A stretch of DNA of 64,000 bases from Clostridia bacterium (GTDB lineage: Bacteria > Bacillota > Limnochordia > DTU080 > RSA5), in NCBI GenBank assembly GCA_002919235.1, contig PKEX01000003.1:1-64000 (forward strand). Direction: 5' to 3'. Below the pieces are notes generated by a model. It was not told where the DNA came from, did not search any database, and was given only the letters and a program-made list of their open reading frames with translations. Of this stretch, positions 46,909-58,611 are shown in pieces (the first letter of the stretch is position 1; every line of letters starts with the position of its first letter). The position numbers and the translations under genes are program-made.

Positions 46909-47430
46909 GTGAAGTGCCCGTTCTGCGGTTTTGCCGACACCCGCGTGCTCGAGAGCCGGCCCACGGAGGAAGGGTCGGCCGTCCGAAGGAGGCGAGAGTG
47001 CTTAGAGTGCAAGGAGCGATTTACCACCTATGAACGGGTGGAGACCGTTCCCCTGATCGTGATCAAGAAGGACGGCACCAGGCAGGAGTTTGATCGGAAC
47101 AAGATCCTCCAGGGACTCATCACCGCCTGCGAAAAGCGGCCGGTTCCTCTCGGAAGGCTGGAGGAGCTGGTCTCGGACATCGAACGCCGCCTGCGCAACT
47201 CCATGGAGCAAGAAGTTTCGTCACAAGTCATCGGCGAGATGGTGATGGAAGGCCTGAGGGAGATCGACGAAGTGGCCTACGTCCGTTTCGCTTCGGTGTA
47301 CCGGCAGTTCAAAGACATCAACGGCTTCCTGGAGGAGCTCCACGCCCTGCTCCGGGAGCGGCAGGAGCGGCAGAAGGCGCCGGCTCCGGAGGCGGCGCCG
47401 GGCGAACCGAGCGGTTTTTCGGGTATTTGA
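46909..47430 (+). CDS. nrdR: transcriptional repressor NrdR
   Basis: [48 protein letters not shown] start. Confidence 0.97.
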
Positions 47431-50400
47431 TTGAAGGAGGCGTGTTGCCGGTGCGTCAAAAGACCCCTCAGACGGGAGTAGACGAGCCCGCCATCGAGCT
47501 GAGCGGCATTTCGGAGCTGATTTTCCTTGACCGCTACGCGATCAAGGATCCCAACAAGGACATCCAGGTGGGCGACACCGTCGTCGTCCTGGTGAAGGAC
47601 GACCCGCGCTTTCCCCAGCGGGAAGTGGGCACCGTCAAGGCGGTGGACGGCGACAAGATCACCGTGGAGATCAAGGCGACGGGCGAGGTGATCACCCAGG
47701 AGCGCCGCAAGGTGGACAAGCCCCTGGAGACGCACCCGTCGCAGATGTGGGACCGGATGGCCAAGGCCATCGTCCAGGTGGAGCCCGAAGAGAAGCGGGC
47801 CGAGCTCGAAAAGGAGTTCCGCTGGGCGCTCCACAACTTCCGGTTCAGCCCGGGCGGGCGGATCAACGCGATGCTCGGCACGGGCCAAAACCTCACCGCG
47901 TACAACTGCTACGTCATCCCCATCGAGGCCAAGGATCCCAACGTCGGCCGCGACTCGCGCCAGGCCATCATCGACACCCTGGGCAACATGGTGGAGATCA
48001 TGTCCCGGGGCGGCGGGGTCGGCATCAACCTGTCGACGCTCCGGCCGCGCCTCGCGTACGTGGCCGGGGTGAACGGCCGCAGCTCGGGTGCGGTGAGCTG
48101 GGGGGCGCTCTTCAGCTTCGCCACCGGCTTGGTGGAACAAGGCGGCAGCCGGCGCGGCGCGCTCATGCTCATCCTCAACGACTGGCACCCGGACATCCTC
48201 GACTTCATCAACGCCAAGCGCGACATGTCGGCCATCAACAACGCCAATATTTCAGTCGGCATCAGCAACGATTTCATGAAGGCGGTGGAGGAGGACCGGG
48301 AGTGGCAGCTGGTCTTCCCGGACACGTCCGATCCGGACTATGACAAGCTCTGGGACGGCAATCTCAAGCGCTGGCGCGACGAGTACAAGAAGCCGGTCAA
48401 GGTGTACCGCACCATCCGGGCGCGGGAGATGTGGGACACCATCATCGAGTCGGCCTGGCTTTCCGCCGAGCCCGGAGTGGTCTTCCTCGAGCGGATGAAC
48501 GAGTACAACAACGCGTGGTATTTTGAGGATTTGATTTCGACGAACCCGTGCGTCACCGGCGACACTCTGATCTACACGGACCAGGGGCTGGTACGGGCCG
48601 ACCAGCTTTGGTTGGAAGCGACGCCCGTTTCGGTGGCCGTGGACGCGCGCATGGCTGAGGAGCCATTTCGTCCGGCTTCCCAAGTCTTTGCGACGGGCGT
48701 TAAACCCGTTTACCGTCTGATCACCAAGGAAGGGTTTGAACTGCGCCTCACGGGGGACCACCGCGTGCTTACGGAACGCGGCTGGGTCGAGGCGCACGCG
48801 CTGAAGCCCGGCGACCGGATCCGGGTGCTCAACCGGGGCGGCGGCTTTGGCACCGAGGGCTCGCTTGAACTCGGCCGGGTCCTGGGCTGGTTGGTCGGCG
48901 ACGGCACCATCAAGTCGGATCGGGCCGTGCTCTCGTTCTTCGGCGGGGAAAAGCACGAGGTCAGTACGCTGATGCGGGACGCCGTAAACAGCGTGGTTCG
49001 CAAGGCGGTCAACGGCCGCGAGTACACCGTCAGTGTGATCGACATCGAGAAGCGCGATGAAGCCCGAGTTCAATCCGCCCGCCTGCGGGAGATCGCCGAG
49101 GAGCACGGGTTGCTCGGGGAAAAACTCCAGGTGCCGGAATCGGTGCTTCGCGGCTGCCGGGATATGCAGCTGGGCTTTCTGCAGGCGCTCTTTACGGCCG
49201 ACGGGCATGTCGAAATCGGCGACAAGAGCCGCGGTGCGGTGGTCTTGACGTCCAAGTCGCGCCGGCTGCTTCAGGGCGTCCAGCGGCTGCTCCTCAACTT
49301 CGGAATCTACAGCCGCATCTATTCCGACCGGAAAGCCACGGGGACGAGCCTTCTGCCCGACGGCAAAGGCGGCGTCCGGGAGTATCCGGTTGAAGCCTAC
49401 CATGACCTGCGCATCACCGGCGCCAGCGCCGTGCGCTTCGCCGAGCAGATCGGCTTCCTCACCTCCGACAAGCAAGGCAAGCTTGAGGCCCTTGTCGGAA
49501 GGTACTCAAGGGGTCCGTACCAGGAGACCTTCGTCGCGACCTTCTCGGAGCTGGTGCCTGACGGCGAAGAGATGGTCTTCGACCTCAACGTGCCCGGCCT
49601 GCACGCCTTCGTGGCCAACGGCCTTGTGGTCCATAACTGCGGCGAGCAGCCGCTTCCAGGCTGGGGTGTCTGCAACCTGGGCCACATCAACCTCTCGCGC
49701 TTCGTCAAGGACGGCAAGGTCCTTTGGGATGACCTGAAGAGGGCCGTCCGCCTGGGCGTGCGCTTCCTCGACAACGTCATCGACGTGACGCCCTACTTCT
49801 TTGAGCGCAACGAAGCGGTGCAGAAGGCGGAGCGGCGGATCGGCCTCGGCACCATGGGCCTGGGCGAGATGCTGATCCGGCTGGGCCTGCGCTACGGCAG
49901 CGACGAGAGCGTCGAGTTCATCGACAAGCTCTACAAGTTCATCGCGACCGAGGCGTACCTGGCCAGCATCGAGCTGGCCAAGGAGAAGGGGCCGTTCCCC
50001 AAGTTCGACGCGGAGAAGTTCCTCCAGGGCAAGTTCGTCCAGGGCATGCCCGACGAAGTCAAAGAGGGCATCAAGAAGTACGGCATCCGCAACGTGTGCA
50101 TCCTCACGCAGGCGCCCACCGGCAGCACGGGCACCATGGTGGGCACCAGCACCGGGATCGAGCCGTACTACAGCTGGACGTACTGGCGCAGCGGCCGCCT
50201 GGGTATGAAGGAAGTGCGCGAGCGCATCGTGGACGAGTGGTTCGAGGCCCATCCCGAGGTGGAGCCCAAGCTCGAGAACCTGCCCGACTACTTCGTCACC
50301 GCCCTGGAGCTCACGCCGAAAGAACACATCCGGGTGCAGGCCGCAGTGCAGCGCTGGACCGACTCCAGCATCTCCAAGACGGCCAACTGCCCGAACAACT

Positions 50401-51146
50401 ACACCGTCGAGCAGACCCGGGAGCTGTACGAGTACGCCTATCGCCTGGGCTGCAAGGGAGTCACCATCTACCGGGACGGCTCCCGTGACACCCAGGTGCT
50501 CAAGGTGAAGGAGGACGAGGAGGACAAAGCCTCCTCGGCCCAGGCCGGCGGCGGCAGCGAAGCCGGGGAGCGGATGGCTGCCCGCAGCGAAGCGCCGGAG
50601 GTCGCGGCGGAGCCGGCCATCTCCCCCGCCTCGGCGGCGGGCGGCGAGACCGCCCAGTCCGGCGGCCGCAAGCGCTGGAGCCACCGCCCGCAAAAGCTGA
50701 CGGGGGCCACCTACGAGTGGCCGACGCCGCTGGGCAAGGCGTTCATCACCGTCAACGAGCTGGACGGCGTGCCCGTAGAAGTGTTCGTCAACGTGGGCAA
50801 AGCGGGAAGCGACGTCGCCGCGGCGTCCGAGGCCTTGGGCCGCCTGGTGACGCTCTTCCTCAAACACGCCGACATCCCCGACGTCGAGCGCCGGGTGGGC
50901 TACCTCATCGACCACCTGAGCAATATCGGCGGCTCCTCCTCGGTGGGCTTCGGGGAAAACCGGGTGTCGTCGGTGCCCGACGCCGTCGCCAAGACCCTCC
51001 GCAAGCACCTGGCCGAAAACGGCAGCGGCGTCAAGGTGAAGGTGAGGGTGCGCGGGCTCGACCTCTGCCCCACCTGCGGCGTGGCGGCCTTGGCCCGTGA
51101 GGAAGGCTGCTACGTCTGCAAGTCGTGCGGCTATACCAAGTGCTAG
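47427..51146 (+). CDS. nrdJ: adenosylcobalamin-dependent (class II) ribonucleoside-diphosphate reductase, intein-containing
   Basis: [32 protein letters not shown][intein][16 protein letters not shown]-terminal CPTCG...[12 protein letters not shown]; 4-bp overlap with nrdR. Confidence 0.95.
48549..49637 (+). mobile_element. intein with LAGLIDADG homing endonuclease domain
   Basis: [13 protein letters not shown] (block A), LTGDHRVL (block B), LGWLVGDG and LQALFTADG (LAGLIDADG), [22 protein letters not shown] (blocks F,G). Confidence 0.95.
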
Positions 51147-52026: not shown

Positions 52027-52383
52027 TCAGTCGCAGAGCTCGGGTTCGCCCTCCTCATCGGCGGTCCGGAAGGAGCTGCCGCAGCCGCACGTGCGGACGG
52101 CGTTGGGGTTGTTGATGGCGAACCCGCCGCCCATGAGGGCTTCCTTAAAGTCGATCTCGGAGCCGTCCACGAACCGTGCCGACCACGGATCGACGAGGAT
52201 CGTCACACCGCCGCATTCAAAGATGTTATCGTCTTCACGAGGCGTATCGAGAGCGAGTCCATAGGTGAACCCGCTGCATCCACCGCTTTTGACATAGAGC
52301 CGGAGGGCCAGCTGCTCTTTGTCTTCGCGCGCCTCGAGGATCTCTTTCACTTTCAGCGCCGCCTTCTCGGTGAGCGTCACCAT
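52027..52383 (-). CDS. Fe-S cluster assembly accessory protein (IscA/ErpA/SufA family)
   Basis: LYVKSGGCSGFTYG...NNPNAVRTCGCGSSF. Confidence 0.93.
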   Translation of the reverse strand: MVTLTEKAALKVKEILEAREDKEQLALRLYVKSGGCSGFTYGLALDTPREDDNIFECGGVTILVDPWSARFVDGSEIDFKEALMGGGFAINNPNAVRTCGCGSSFRTADEEGEPELCD

Positions 52384-52464: not shown

Positions 52465-54690
52465 CTATCCCGCCCGCCGCGCGGCGCCCGTCCACGGCCG
52501 CCGGGTCTTTTTCACAAGGCGCGCCGCATTGGCCGCCACCGCGGCGGCAGCCAGAAATTCGAGGGCAGCCGCCAGCCAGAGGGTGAGCCCGCCGGACAGC
52601 AAGAGCGCCAGCGCCAGCGCCTTGAGCCCCAGCACCACGGCGATGTTTTGCCGGATCACCCGCAGCGTTCTCCGGGCCAGGCTCAAGGCGAACGGCAGCC
52701 GTTCGAAACTCTCCCCCACCAGCATCACGTCGGCCCGGCCGAACCGGCGCACCTCGTCCCACGGCCCGAACACAATGTCGACGTCGGCGGCCGAGGCTGT
52801 GCCGCGCGGGCCGGTGCAAGGCCGCACCACCGCCACCCGCCGACGCTGCCGCTGCAGCGCTCGAATCGCCTCGAGGCGCCGGCCCGCCCGCAGCCCTGCC
52901 AGGTGTTGATCCACCTCCAGCTCCGCGGCGGCCCGGGCCGCCTGCCGGGTCTCCTCCCCGCTCACCATCGCGAGGTGGCGGATTCCCACGGCCCGGGCGC
53001 GGCGCAGCGCCTTCTTGCTCTCCTCGTTCACCGTCTCCACCAAGGCGAAGACGGCGACAGGCTCCTTCCCTTCCACGACGAGGGCAATGCGAACGCCTTC
53101 CCGTCTCAAGGCGTTGATTTTGGGCAACACCGGCGTGAGGGCAATCCCTCGCCGCTCAAGGCTCGCCAGCTCCCCGAAGGCGAAGAGCCGCTCCCCAGCG
53201 ACGGCCTCCACGTTGCCGTACTCGTCCGTCCGGACAGAGTCCACGGCCACCACGCCGCTCCCCGCTTCCTGCGCCGCCCGGACCACCGCCTCCCCGGCCG
53301 CGTCGTACCTTCCCCACAGGACGCCCGCCGCGAGCGCCAGCGCCTCTTGGCGGCTCCACCCCGGCAGGGGGTACACTTCGCACACATCCAGGCGCTCGGC
53401 CGTCAGCACGGCGCCGGGTTCAAAGGCGACGGCGTCCACCCGTCCCAGGCGTCCTAGCGCCTCGCCGCTCTGGAACAGGACGCCGCCTCGCACGCCCGCG
53501 ACCACCGCCGCCCCGAAAGCGGCGGGGACGCTGAGGCTCAGGGCGCACGGCAGGGCCAGCAGAGCCAGGATCAAGGCGGTGTAGAGCCAGGTGCCGAACG
53601 CCGCGCCCAGAAGGAGCGGCGGCAGCGCAGCGACGCCCACGGCCGCGTAAAGCAGCAGCCGGGCCATGCGGGCCGCCGCCCGCTGAGCCCATTCGTGGCC
53701 GGGGCCCGGCGTGTTCAGCGCCCCGGTGACCCGCTCCAGCGCGGCCCACCCCGCGCTCTCCTTCGCCGGGCGCTCCGCCCGGACCCACACCTGCCAGTCT
53801 CCGTTGAGGCTTCCCGCGTCGACCCGGTCTCCCTCGCCGACACGGCGCACGGGCTCCGAGACGCCCCACGGGCCTTGGGAGACCTCCGAGACGCCCTCCA
53901 CCACCACGCCGTCCACGGGAAACGGCTCCCCGGGGTCCACGACGCACACGTCCCCCGGGGCGATCTGGTCCACCGGAACCCGCCGGGGCTGCCCGTCCAC
54001 GAGGCAAAAGGCGTGCTCCGGAAGCCGCGCCGCCCACTCCCAGACGAAGCGGCGCAGCTTGTCCATGGACGATGCCTGCAGCAGTTCGCTTCCGGAAAAA
54101 ATGCACAAGACGGCGGCCGCCTCCAGCCACCGGCCGAGGAGCACAGCGCCCAGGGAGGCGCACATGGCGGTGAACGAGGCGTCGACGCGGCGGCGCACGA
54201 GGCCGCCCAACGCCCGTTTGACAGGATGGTATCCGCCGAGGACCAGCGCCGCGGCCGCGATGAGCCGCCCTGGGGTCAGCTGGGGAGGAGCCGTCTCGAG
54301 GAGCACCGGAGGCCACTGGAGCCCGGCGGCCTCCACCGCTGCGCCGGCGGCGACGAGAAGGACACCCAAGGTGAGGAGCACGAGCTGCCTGCGGTGCTGT
54401 CTGGGGCGGCTTCTGCCATGGGAGTGGGGTTTCCCCGCCCGGTGGAGCCGGACCGCCTGTACGCTCTGGCGGCTGGCCAGGCGGGCGATCTCGTTGGGCC
54501 CATACGGCCCTTCGGTCCGGAGCAAGCCGGCGCCGTAGTTGAGCTCGACCCGCTTCATCCCTTCGAGGCCGGCCAGGCCTCGCTGGAATTGGGCCGCGCA
54601 TTCAGGGCAGGAGAGCCCGCTGAGACGAAAGGTGATCCCGCCGGATCCCTCGACCCGCTCCTCCTCCGGCCGCTTCATCTCACGGGCCAC
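52465..54690 (-). CDS. P1B-type heavy-metal ATPase-like protein with degenerate catalytic motifs (putative pseudoenzyme)
   Basis: N-terminal GLSCPECAAQF; LPCALSLSVPAA; VDAVAFEPGAVLTAERL in place of DKTGTLT; VAVVRPCTGPRGTASAADV in place of GDGxNDAPAL; C-terminal RRTLRVIRQNIAVVLGLKA. Confidence 0.88.
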   Translation of the reverse strand: MAREMKRPEEERVEGSGGITFRLSGLSCPECAAQFQRGLAGLEGMKRVELNYGAGLLRTEGPYGPNEIARLASRQSVQAVRLHRAGKPHSHGRSRPRQHRRQLVLLTLGVLLVAAGAAVEAAGLQWPPVLLETAPPQLTPGRLIAAAALVLGGYHPVKRALGGLVRRRVDASFTAMCASLGAVLLGRWLEAAAVLCIFSGSELLQASSMDKLRRFVWEWAARLPEHAFCLVDGQPRRVPVDQIAPGDVCVVDPGEPFPVDGVVVEGVSEVSQGPWGVSEPVRRVGEGDRVDAGSLNGDWQVWVRAERPAKESAGWAALERVTGALNTPGPGHEWAQRAAARMARLLLYAAVGVAALPPLLLGAAFGTWLYTALILALLALPCALSLSVPAAFGAAVVAGVRGGVLFQSGEALGRLGRVDAVAFEPGAVLTAERLDVCEVYPLPGWSRQEALALAAGVLWGRYDAAGEAVVRAAQEAGSGVVAVDSVRTDEYGNVEAVAGERLFAFGELASLERRGIALTPVLPKINALRREGVRIALVVEGKEPVAVFALVETVNEESKKALRRARAVGIRHLAMVSGEETRQAARAAAELEVDQHLAGLRAGRRLEAIRALQRQRRRVAVVRPCTGPRGTASAADVDIVFGPWDEVRRFGRADVMLVGESFERLPFALSLARRTLRVIRQNIAVVLGLKALALALLLSGGLTLWLAAALEFLAAAAVAANAARLVKKTRRPWTGAARRAG

Positions 54691-55131: not shown

Positions 55132-56187
55132 ATGTACAAAATCGCGGTGATCCCCGGCGACGGGACGGGTCCTGAGGTCGTCCGGGAAGGGCTCAAAGTG
55201 CTGGAAGCCGCAGGGGCCAAGTTCGGTTTCCGCTACGAAACCGTGCACTACGACTTCGGCGGCGACCGCTACCTGCGCACCGGCGAGACGCTGCCCGATT
55301 CGGCCCTGGAGGAGCTGCGCGGCTTCGACGCCATCTACCTCGGCGCCATCGGCCACCCGGACGTGAAGCCGGGCATCTTGGAAAAGGGCATTCTGCTCCG
55401 GATCCGCTTCGAGCTGGACCAGTACGTCAACCTCCGGCCCGTCAAGCTCTACCCAGGGGTGGAGACGCCGCTGAAGGATAAGGGCCCCGAGCACATCGAT
55501 TTCGTGGTGGTGCGGGAGAACACCGAGGGCCTCTACACCGGCAGCGGCGGCTTTCTCAAGCGGGGCACGCCCGACGAAATCGCCATCCAGGAGTCGATCA
55601 ACACCCGCAAAGGCGTGGAGCGCTGCGTCCGGTTCGCGTTCGAGTACGCCCGCAAGCGCAACAAGCAGAAGAAGGTCACCCTCTGCGGCAAGACCAACGT
55701 CCTCACCTACGCCTTCGACCTGTGGGAGCGGGTCTTCCACGAGGTGGGCGAGAAGGACTACCCCGACATCCAGCGGGACTACGCCCACGTAGACGCCACC
55801 GTCATGTGGATGGTGAAGAACCCCGAGTGGTTCGACGTCATCGTCACCGACAACATGTTCGGCGACATCATCACCGACCTGGGCGCGATGATCCAGGGCG
55901 GCATGGGCATCGCCGCCGGCGGGAACATCAATCCCGAGGGGACCAGCATGTTCGAGCCCATCGGCGGTTCGGCGCCCAAGTACACCGGCAAGAACATGAT
56001 CAACCCGCTGGCGGCCATCTGCGCGGCGGGCATGATGCTGGAGACCCTGGGCGAAACCGAGGCGGCCCAAGCCATCGACCAGGCGGTGGCCACCGTCTGC
56101 TCCCGGCACCTCAAGAGCCTGGCCGCGGGGCAAATGGGCTACACCACCAGCGAAGTGGGCGACCTGGTCTGCCGGTACATCGCCTGA
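55132..56187 (+). CDS. isocitrate/isopropylmalate dehydrogenase family protein
   Basis: IAVIPGDGTGPEVVREG, VVRENTEGLYTG, DNMFGDIITDLGAMIQGGMG, EPIGGSAPKYTGKNMINPLA. Confidence 0.92.
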   Translation: MYKIAVIPGDGTGPEVVREGLKVLEAAGAKFGFRYETVHYDFGGDRYLRTGETLPDSALEELRGFDAIYLGAIGHPDVKPGILEKGILLRIRFELDQYVNLRPVKLYPGVETPLKDKGPEHIDFVVVRENTEGLYTGSGGFLKRGTPDEIAIQESINTRKGVERCVRFAFEYARKRNKQKKVTLCGKTNVLTYAFDLWERVFHEVGEKDYPDIQRDYAHVDATVMWMVKNPEWFDVIVTDNMFGDIITDLGAMIQGGMGIAAGGNINPEGTSMFEPIGGSAPKYTGKNMINPLAAICAAGMMLETLGETEAAQAIDQAVATVCSRHLKSLAAGQMGYTTSEVGDLVCRYIA

Positions 56188-56224
56188 GTTCACCCGAACG
56201 CGCGCGAAAGTTGGGGACGGCCTT

Positions 56225-57772
56225 ATGTCGGCGGTGGAGCGGACCGATTTTCTCGTGGTGGGCAGCGGCATCGCCGGCCTGGCCACGGCCATCAAAGCCA
56301 GCCGGCACGGCGAGGTCACGCTGCTGACCAAGGGCCATCTGATGGAAAGCAACACCTTTTACGCCCAGGGGGGCATCGCGGCCGCCGTGGGCCCCGACGA
56401 CTCGCCTGCGGAGCACCTTGTCGACACACTGCGGGCCGGCCACGACCTGGTGCGGGAGGACGCCGCCGCCATCTTGGTGGAGGACGGCCCCCAGCGGGTG
56501 ATGGAACTCATCCAGCTCGGGGCCCGCTTCGACGTGGGCCCCGACGGCTCGCTCCTCTTGGGCCGGGAAGGCGCCCACAGCCGCAACCGGATCCTCCACG
56601 CCCGGGGCGACGCGACCGGCGAGGAGATCGCCGAGGTGCTGGCCGCCCGGGCCACAGAGATCCCGGCCATCCGGATCCGGGAGCACCACCACGTCCTGGA
56701 CCTGGTGGTGGACCAGGGCCGCTGCATCGGGGCGGCCGCGGTGGACGCCTCAGGGGAGCTGCGCCTCTTCCTGGCCCGGGCGGTCGTGATGGCCACGGGC
56801 GGCTGCGGCCAGGTGTACCGGTACACCACCAACCCGCCGGTGGCCACCGGGGACGGGTTCGCCGTCGCCCACGCCCACGGCGTCACCCTGGTGGACATGG
56901 AGTTCGTGCAGTTTCATCCTACCGCGCTGGCCCGGGCCGACGACCCCCTGGTCCTCATCTCCGAAGCGGTGCGGGGCGAAGGAGCCCGGCTGGTCAACGA
57001 CGCCGGCGACCCGTTCATGCGCCGAGAGCACCCCATGGCCGATCTCGCGCCCCGGGACGTCGTGGCGCGGGCGATCTTTCGGGAGATGCAGGCCGGCCGC
57101 AAGGTGTTTCTCGACGCTCGCCCTATCGGCCCGCGGTTTGCAGACCGGTTCCCTACGATTTACCAAGCGTGCCGGGAGCGAGGCATCGACCCGGCGCGGG
57201 ATCTTATTCCCATCGCCCCTGCCGCCCACTTCATCATGGGCGGCATTCAGACCGACCTCCTGGGCCGCACCAGCCTGCCCGGGCTGTACGCCGTGGGCGA
57301 AGCGGCGTGCACGGGAGTGCACGGCGCGAACCGCCTGGCCAGCAACTCGCTCCTGGAAGGACTAGTCTTTGCCGACCGGATCGCCGGCGCCTTGAAGGAC
57401 GAGGCTCCGGCGGCGGCGGCCGTGCCCCCGGGGTACCAAGAGCAGCTGGCCGCCCGGCGCGGCCTCGTCCAGGGCAGGCCGTACCGGGACCGCACCGGGG
57501 AATTTCCCGAGCTGGTGGCACGGCTGCGGCAGGTGATGTGGGATCACGTGGGAATCATTCGCAGCGCCGAGGGCCTCCGCCGGGCTTTGGACGCCCTGGC
57601 GGAGATCGAGCGCGCCGCGCCGCGGGACGCCTGGACGCTGCACAACATGGTCCAGACCGGAAAGCTCATCGCCCGCGCGGCGCTGGAGCGCGAAGAGAGC
57701 CGCGGCGGGCACTACCGGGAGGATTTCCCCGAAGAGCGCGCGGCGTGGAAAGGGAGGCGCGTGACGCTTTGA
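56225..57772 (+). CDS. nadB: L-aspartate oxidase
   Basis: DFLVVGSGIAGLATAIKA, TFYAQGGIAAAVGPDD, MEFVQFHPTAL, GLYAVGEAACTGVHGANRLASNSLLEGLVF. Confidence 0.96.
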   Translation: MSAVERTDFLVVGSGIAGLATAIKASRHGEVTLLTKGHLMESNTFYAQGGIAAAVGPDDSPAEHLVDTLRAGHDLVREDAAAILVEDGPQRVMELIQLGARFDVGPDGSLLLGREGAHSRNRILHARGDATGEEIAEVLAARATEIPAIRIREHHHVLDLVVDQGRCIGAAAVDASGELRLFLARAVVMATGGCGQVYRYTTNPPVATGDGFAVAHAHGVTLVDMEFVQFHPTALARADDPLVLISEAVRGEGARLVNDAGDPFMRREHPMADLAPRDVVARAIFREMQAGRKVFLDARPIGPRFADRFPTIYQACRERGIDPARDLIPIAPAAHFIMGGIQTDLLGRTSLPGLYAVGEAACTGVHGANRLASNSLLEGLVFADRIAGALKDEAPAAAAVPPGYQEQLAARRGLVQGRPYRDRTGEFPELVARLRQVMWDHVGIIRSAEGLRRALDALAEIERAAPRDAWTLHNMVQTGKLIARAALEREESRGGHYREDFPEERAAWKGRRVTL

Positions 57773-58611
57773 ACCGGCTTCACCCCCTGCTGTACCAGGA
57801 GATCGTCGACCGCGCCTTGCTGGAGGACGTGGGGCACGGGGACCTCACCTCGGAAGCCATCATTCCCCCGCACCGCCTGGCCAAGGGCAAGATCGTCGCC
57901 AAAGCGCCCGGGCGCATCGCCGGCGTCGAGGTGGCGGCCTACGCCTTTCGCCGGGTGGACCCCGGCCTTGAGCTGGAGACGCTGGTCCAGGACGGCGACG
58001 CCGTCCAGCCCGGCGACGAAGTGCTCCGGCTGCGGGGCTCCGCCCGCAGCATGCTCACGGCGGAGCGGGTGGCTCTCAACTTTTTGCAGCGGCTCTCCGG
58101 GATCGCGACGGAAACGGCGAAAGCGGTGGAGGCCACCCGGGGCACCCAGGCCATCATCGTCGACACCCGCAAGACCACGCCCGGCCTGCGGGTGCTGGAA
58201 AAGTACGCCGTCCGGGTGGGGGGCGGGCGCAACCACCGCTTCGGCCTGGACGACGCGGTCCTGATCAAAGAGAACCACATCGCCGTGGCGGGCGGCATCC
58301 GCAGCGCCGTGGAGGCTGCCCGGGCGTACCTGGGGCACATGCACAAGATCGAGGTGGAAGTGGAAACCCTGGCGCAGGTGGAAGAAGCCGTGGCCGCGGG
58401 GGCCGATGCCGTCCTCCTGGACAACATGGACCTGGAGACCATGGCGGAAGCCGTCCGGCTGGTAGGCGGCCGGGCCCTCGTCGAAGCCTCCGGCGGCATC
58501 CGGCCCGAGACCGTCGCGCAGGTGGCCCGCACGGGAGTGGACGTCATCTCCCTGGGCTGGATCACCCACTCCGCCCCGGCCTTGGATTTGAGCCTGCTGG
58601 TGACGGTGTGA
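57769..58611 (+). CDS. nadC: nicotinate-nucleotide pyrophosphorylase (carboxylating)
   Basis: LLEDVGHGDLTSEAI, TRKTTPGLRVLEKYAVRVGGGRNHRFGLDDAVLIKENH; TTG start overlapping the nadB stop. Confidence 0.96.
   Translation: MNRLHPLLYQEIVDRALLEDVGHGDLTSEAIIPPHRLAKGKIVAKAPGRIAGVEVAAYAFRRVDPGLELETLVQDGDAVQPGDEVLRLRGSARSMLTAERVALNFLQRLSGIATETAKAVEATRGTQAIIVDTRKTTPGLRVLEKYAVRVGGGRNHRFGLDDAVLIKENHIAVAGGIRSAVEAARAYLGHMHKIEVEVETLAQVEEAVAAGADAVLLDNMDLETMAEAVRLVGGRALVEASGGIRPETVAQVARTGVDVISLGWITHSAPALDLSLLVTV

Follow-up and report, generated by a model that had tools for sequence, protein, structure and literature searches.

The 64,000-nucleotide stretch of DNA analysed here (the window) carries on its minus strand an uninterrupted gene whose product is, judging from its sequence, a P1B-ATPase homologue of the ZntA/CadA (P1B-2) type. 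This protein no longer has the residues for phosphorylation and dephosphorylation, nor the first thiolate of the CPC motif. We propose, with a probability of about 0.6, that it belongs to a family of P-type pseudo-ATPases that spans the order, descends from a P1B-2 (ZntA/CadA-type) pump and is kept in the membrane for a role other than pumping. That it is a retained pseudo-pump that no longer pumps appears quite probable. More tentatively, we suggest that it may act on another membrane or metal-handling protein in a regulatory or scaffolding capacity, with an internal ion pair to gate or stabilise it. The features that bear on these proposals are collected in Table 1.

Table 1. Features of the pseudo-pump gene, its product and its surroundings (window coordinates unless a locus is given)
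Feature	Position	Strand	Remarks
NrdJ-like ribonucleotide reductase	47427..51146	+	One flank of conserved block
ErpA/IscA-family gene	52027..52383	-	Downstream of pseudo-pump; adjacent in 3/6 genomes
Pseudo-P1B-ATPase, 741 aa + stop	52465..54690	-	GTG start at 54690, stop 52465-52467
E711, equivalent of ZntA D714	52558..52560	-	D or E in 5/6 by alignment
K690, equivalent of ZntA K693 (built-in counterion)	52621..52623	-	K or R in 6/6
Former GDGxND hinge motif, residues 623-628, RPCTGP	52807..52824	-	Comparison with intact pumps
N domain, residues 441-540	53071..53370	-	Most conserved domain in window/G001 pair
Former DKTGT phosphorylation site, residues 424-428, EPGAV	53407..53421	-	Comparison with intact pumps
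Former CPC metal-binding motif, residues 380-382, LPC	53545..53553	-	Second Cys kept
Former TGES loop, residues 275-278, WGVS	53857..53868	-	Comparison with intact pumps
E190, equivalent of ZntA E202 (ion-release acid)	54121..54123	-	E,D,D,D,D,D in six orthologues
HMA domain with CxxC, residues 20-57, CPEC	54520..54633	-	Pfam HMA E=0.0046, below cut-off
Small membrane protein, 90 aa	54713..54985	-	22 bp upstream of pseudo-pump
IDH, NadB, NadC	55132..58611	+	Other flank of conserved block
G004 pseudo-pump copy split by TAG	L139:7752-9932		

A preliminary description of this DNA had reported an uninterrupted frame of 741 codons with homology to ZntA/CadA-type pumps. The frame is indeed free of internal stops, and the homology was borne out far above chance by profile and structure database matches. 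Thus, the protein matches Pfam E1-E2_ATPase (2.6e-21), and among solved structures ZntA is nearest to it in sequence (PDB 4umv; 7.7e-56, residues 14-728 aligned). The NCBIfam Zn/Cd/Hg/Pb-ATPase (4.8e-75) and TIGR01525 (1.4e-65) profiles were matched below their curated cut-offs, although the NCBIfam and PDB matches together indicate full-length similarity to P1B-2 pumps. A chance reading frame in GC-rich DNA is ruled out by the profile matches and by codon-position conservation. A weak Pfam match to CoA_binding_2 fell below cut-off and was ignored, and a promoter scan detected no sigma-70-like site. The source genome encodes four further P1B pumps, all of them with intact DKTGT and GDGxND motifs.

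Alignment against 40 intact P1B pumps upheld every motif replacement that had been listed at the outset. In addition to the four former motifs of Table 1, HP has become DA and TGD has become SGE. The window copy therefore lacks the DKTGT motif with its Asp, the TGE(S) loop and the GDGxND motif of functional P-type ATPases, as well as a CPC membrane metal site, and we infer from its sequence that it would be incapable of the E1-E2 cycle and hence of pumping. It keeps 2 of 22 catalytic positions, versus 49 of 84 other conserved positions (Fisher p = 2.6e-5). This preferential loss is found in the window copy only, which counts against the pseudo-pump reading. The fold and domain order are nevertheless kept in this copy: an AlphaFold model built from eight sequences has a mean pLDDT of 82.6, and its best Foldseek match is ZntA (4umw). 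TM-scores were higher to the copper-ATPase entries 7r0g (CopA in an ion-uptake state) and 7xuk (ATP7B) than to E2 ZntA, which may reflect a bias of the predictor.

The order was sampled through its six available genomes, which fall into three families according to the kinship labels of the search tool: the window's genome (G000) and G001 in family 1, G002-G004 in family 2, and G005 in another family of the same order. Scanning the genome contigs with the single protein gave no match, and an alignment used as query found the G001 copy along with intact pumps. The syntenic G001 copy is 42% identical to that of the window and carries LPC, DQSGA, SGAE and GDCARD, whereas the syntenic G005 copy has kept TGES and DHP and is devoid of DKTGT, CPC, GDGxND and the CxxC of the HMA domain. 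With a profile made from these three copies, a motif-poor relative was found in G002, G003 and G004 alike. Because these relatives match TIGR01525 (2.3e-31, 3.7e-13 and 3.3e-22), they too are P1B derivatives. Across the six copies, the first Cys of CPC is lost in all and the second in four, LPC being found in the window and G001 copies. The Asp of DKTGT is retained in its motif in G001 alone.

Each of the six genomes thus carries a motif-poor P1B relative on the same strand in the interval between NrdJ and NadB-NadC, and this persistence at one spot suggests that the pump fold has been kept for a non-pumping job. The order of the conserved block is NrdJ, variable genes, the pseudo-pump on the minus strand, in some genomes IDH, then NadB, NadC, a transaminase and a rhomboid protein gene. 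IDH was seen in four of the six genomes (it is absent from view in G004 and G005) and NadB and NadC in all, and the rhomboid part of the block was compared in the genomes other than G005. The NrdJ-like reductase itself is encoded in one 1239-aa frame with an apparent intein, from about CVTGDTL to VVHN, and a similar arrangement occurs in G005.

Three findings had been named beforehand as capable of overturning the idea of a conserved pseudo-pump, namely orthologues in close relatives with intact DKTGT and GDGxND motifs, evidence of relaxed selection, and a sequencing or assembly error. None of the three came about in full. No intact pump version was found at this locus among the six genomes of the order. 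Nor was one seen there in neighbouring orders, and the three best intact relatives sit in other surroundings. Sequencing or assembly error is ruled out by the occurrence of the same state in six separate genomes, and decay confined to one species is ruled out by the order-wide synteny. In a search of 73 genomes of the class with a six-member profile, the six copies scored 553-1079 bits and the other matches listed at most 443 bits, a gap that is partly due to construction since the profile was built from those same six. Among the matches listed, the next three in the class were ZntA-type pumps with intact motifs. Both DKTGT and GDGxND were present in all of the best 24 further relatives checked in the phylum, and a plasmid search yielded distant relatives only, annotated as heavy-metal ATPases.

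The six copies group together in a tree with 80% bootstrap support and very long branches, and because of these branches the case for a single origin relies mainly on synteny. Twenty-one conserved positions, several of them catalytic, are lost in all six copies. This is in keeping with an early loss of activity, yet G001 and G005 have retained different motifs, the former the phosphorylatable Asp and the latter TGES and HP.

The absence of stops had originally been taken to suggest that the gene is kept by selection. This view holds in part: the gene is intact, coding and probably non-pumping, but it is clearly under weaker selection than active pumps are, and there are signs of damage in two of the six copies. 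For the window and G001 copies, the identity at codon positions 1, 2 and 3 is 0.56, 0.62 and 0.43, and the NG86 estimates are 0.59 for dN and 1.23 for dS, the latter being saturated. Active pumps of the same two genomes have dN values of 0.20-0.27, the value of the pseudo-pump being about 2.5 times higher. Pairs within family 2 conform to this pattern, the G002 and G004 copies being identical at 0.49, 0.58 and 0.30 of codon positions 1, 2 and 3. Taken together, the dN and codon-position data indicate that constraint is real yet weaker than on the pumps. About 7-10 stops would be expected from neutral simulation at this GC content and comparable divergence, as opposed to none in the window copy, whose open frame and codon-level constraint are not those of a pseudogene.

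The damaged copies are those of G003 (L129, L138), in which most of the A domain is missing, and of G004, in which an in-frame TAG replaces a sense codon of intact pumps and both halves are still open. The reading frames are open in five of the six copies. The damage in G003 and G004 could mean that the gene is still being lost there, or else that the draft genomes contain errors. At the former A-domain site, the G003 copy has a short repeat, NMTAGA, and it adjoins a spore germination gene that looks GerA/SpoVAF-like by eye.

These data bear on the alternative that survives best, a relic in slow decay, i.e. a redundant pump that has lost its activity and erodes lineage by lineage without having gained a new function. 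Fast evolution, the different motifs that survive in each copy, the loss of the HMA domain in family 2 and the damage in G003 and G004 are what such a relic would display. However, it would hardly be expected to stay in the same place in six of six genomes despite identities between families of only 17-24%, nor to keep five frames open with second codon positions still conserved while third positions are near saturation. Moreover, the relative constraint on the N domain is raised rather than lowered: it is 55% identical between the window and G001 copies versus 40% elsewhere (p = 0.008), and three pairs of active pumps follow the opposite trend, with N-domain identity equal to or below that of the remainder. 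We therefore regard slow decay as unlikely, albeit the foremost competitor of a retained pseudo-pump.

Further indications of function come from the membrane region. In ZntA, E202, K693 and D714 aid zinc release and form a built-in counterion pair (PMC6305203, PMC8880997). We considered 32 alignment columns in which the charge is the same throughout 31 intact P1B-2 pumps. Charge is retained in all six copies only at E202, K693 and one Arg column, with D714 following in five of six. In the sixth copy, that of G003, an acidic E can be placed by hand near the D714 site, whereas the alignment puts that residue elsewhere. Only 7 of the 4960 triples of columns are as well kept as E202/K693/D714 (p = 0.0014), in a test made after the alignment had been inspected. 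As for the P1B-2 signatures of the last two membrane helices, N682(x)7K690 is kept in the window copy and the spacing from E711 to N721 is right, but D has become E and G has become L. In the other copies, only the charges remain of N(x)7K and DxG(x)7N.

The descendants of a P1B-2 zinc/cadmium pump have probably lost the ability to run the E1-E2 cycle, and the protein would persist in the membrane with the charged intramembrane network of E190, K690 and E711 as its working part. The cytosolic head would then present the N domain to a partner. A regulatory or scaffolding partnership, gated or stabilised by the internal ion pair, would be the likeliest function. A rather doubtful extension is that a single conversion in the ancestor of the order gave rise to an ATP-independent device retaining only the acid-Lys/Arg-acid pathway within the membrane and a repurposed N domain, to serve as an ion-gated regulator or a passive conduit. 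A gated facilitator pure and simple, in which zinc, another cation or protons would cross by way of the acid-Lys-acid pathway without ATP, strikes us as improbable. The ZntA ion-release and counterion residues are among the best-kept charges (PMC6305203, PMC8880997), and LPC retains one thiolate in two copies, but the first Cys of CPC has vanished everywhere and the second from most copies, and the salt bridge could be purely structural.

The preliminary description had suggested metal sensing or chaperoning through the N-terminal HMA domain and a link with the adjacent IscA/ErpA-family gene. In both family-1 copies, the domain has its CxxC (CPEC or CADC). This motif is lost in G005, and the domain is absent from G002-G004. 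As no family but that of the window retains the CxxC domain, metal sensing is weakened as a general role, and sensing based on the HMA domain could apply to family 1 only. The neighbours are as had been described, with the small membrane protein gene upstream and ErpA/IscA downstream on the same strand, but the ErpA link finds no support, that neighbour being absent in family 2. The 90-aa membrane protein, for which no family match rose above cut-off, is adjacent in three of the six genomes, and its homologues are found in other surroundings in five genomes of family 16. The small membrane protein and ErpA genes do not, as a general rule, form a fixed operon with the pseudo-pump, since families 1 and 3 are the only ones in which both adjoin it. 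A metal sensor, buffer or chaperone acting through the N-terminal CxxC domain, possibly in the service of ErpA, therefore seems quite improbable in spite of the two family-1 domains and the three genomes in which ErpA is adjacent. The regulatory or scaffolding reading that we prefer faces its own difficulty here, since no partner gene is conserved beside the pseudo-pump in all six genomes.

Lastly, an unorthodox but active pump, or an assembly artefact, is very improbable: G001 has kept the Asp of DQSGA and GD..RD, but the Lys of DKTGT and the P-domain Lys at the K605 position are changed in all six copies, and many independent substitutions are spread over six separate assemblies.

To our knowledge, P-type ATPases are regarded as pumps that necessarily pass through a phosphoenzyme. 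The window copy resembles ZntA/CadA (4umv, 4umw) over nearly its full length in sequence and predicted fold, with HMA, A, P and N domains and a membrane core, and in the charges kept at the E202, K693 and D714 positions. It differs from them by the absence of TGES, CPC, DKTGT, HP, TGD and GDGxND, and phosphorylation and pumping are not expected of it. The six syntenic, presumably inactive copies are reminiscent of pseudoenzymes such as pseudokinases, with long-term conservation, a retained fold and loss of catalytic residues, preferential in the window copy. The vertebrate protein TMEM94/ERMA is also P-type ATPase-like and outside the classic pumps, and its core motifs may likewise be atypical. 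Unlike the pseudo-pump, it is not a P1B relative; it is eukaryotic and has been described as an ER Mg2+ transporter (cited in PMC11758815). We found no description of a P-type pseudo-ATPase family in the open-access literature searched, which does not prove that there is none. If our proposal is correct, a natural family with the fold and charge pathway but without the catalytic cycle would reveal which parts of the scaffold are useful independently. Such engine-less variants would offer ready-made means to probe the coupling between ion binding and phosphorylation. Their genes are easily labelled as heavy-metal ATPases in annotations, although the products probably do not pump.

Several features of intact pumps and their surroundings also came to light. 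In G000 and G001, a separate small HMA-domain frame precedes a CPG-type pump, unfused to it (L007, L016). One of the three next-best matches in the class, the ZntA-type pump of L018 (G061), is intact except that one Trp position is occupied by an in-frame TGA (EWAP*IYRG). Finally, in L093, L095 and L099 (G241, G289 and G099), intact P1B pumps have an in-frame TGA where the HMA motif has its first Cys (SGLT-TGA-[MI]DCAA), suggesting a putative selenocysteine in the metal-binding domain.
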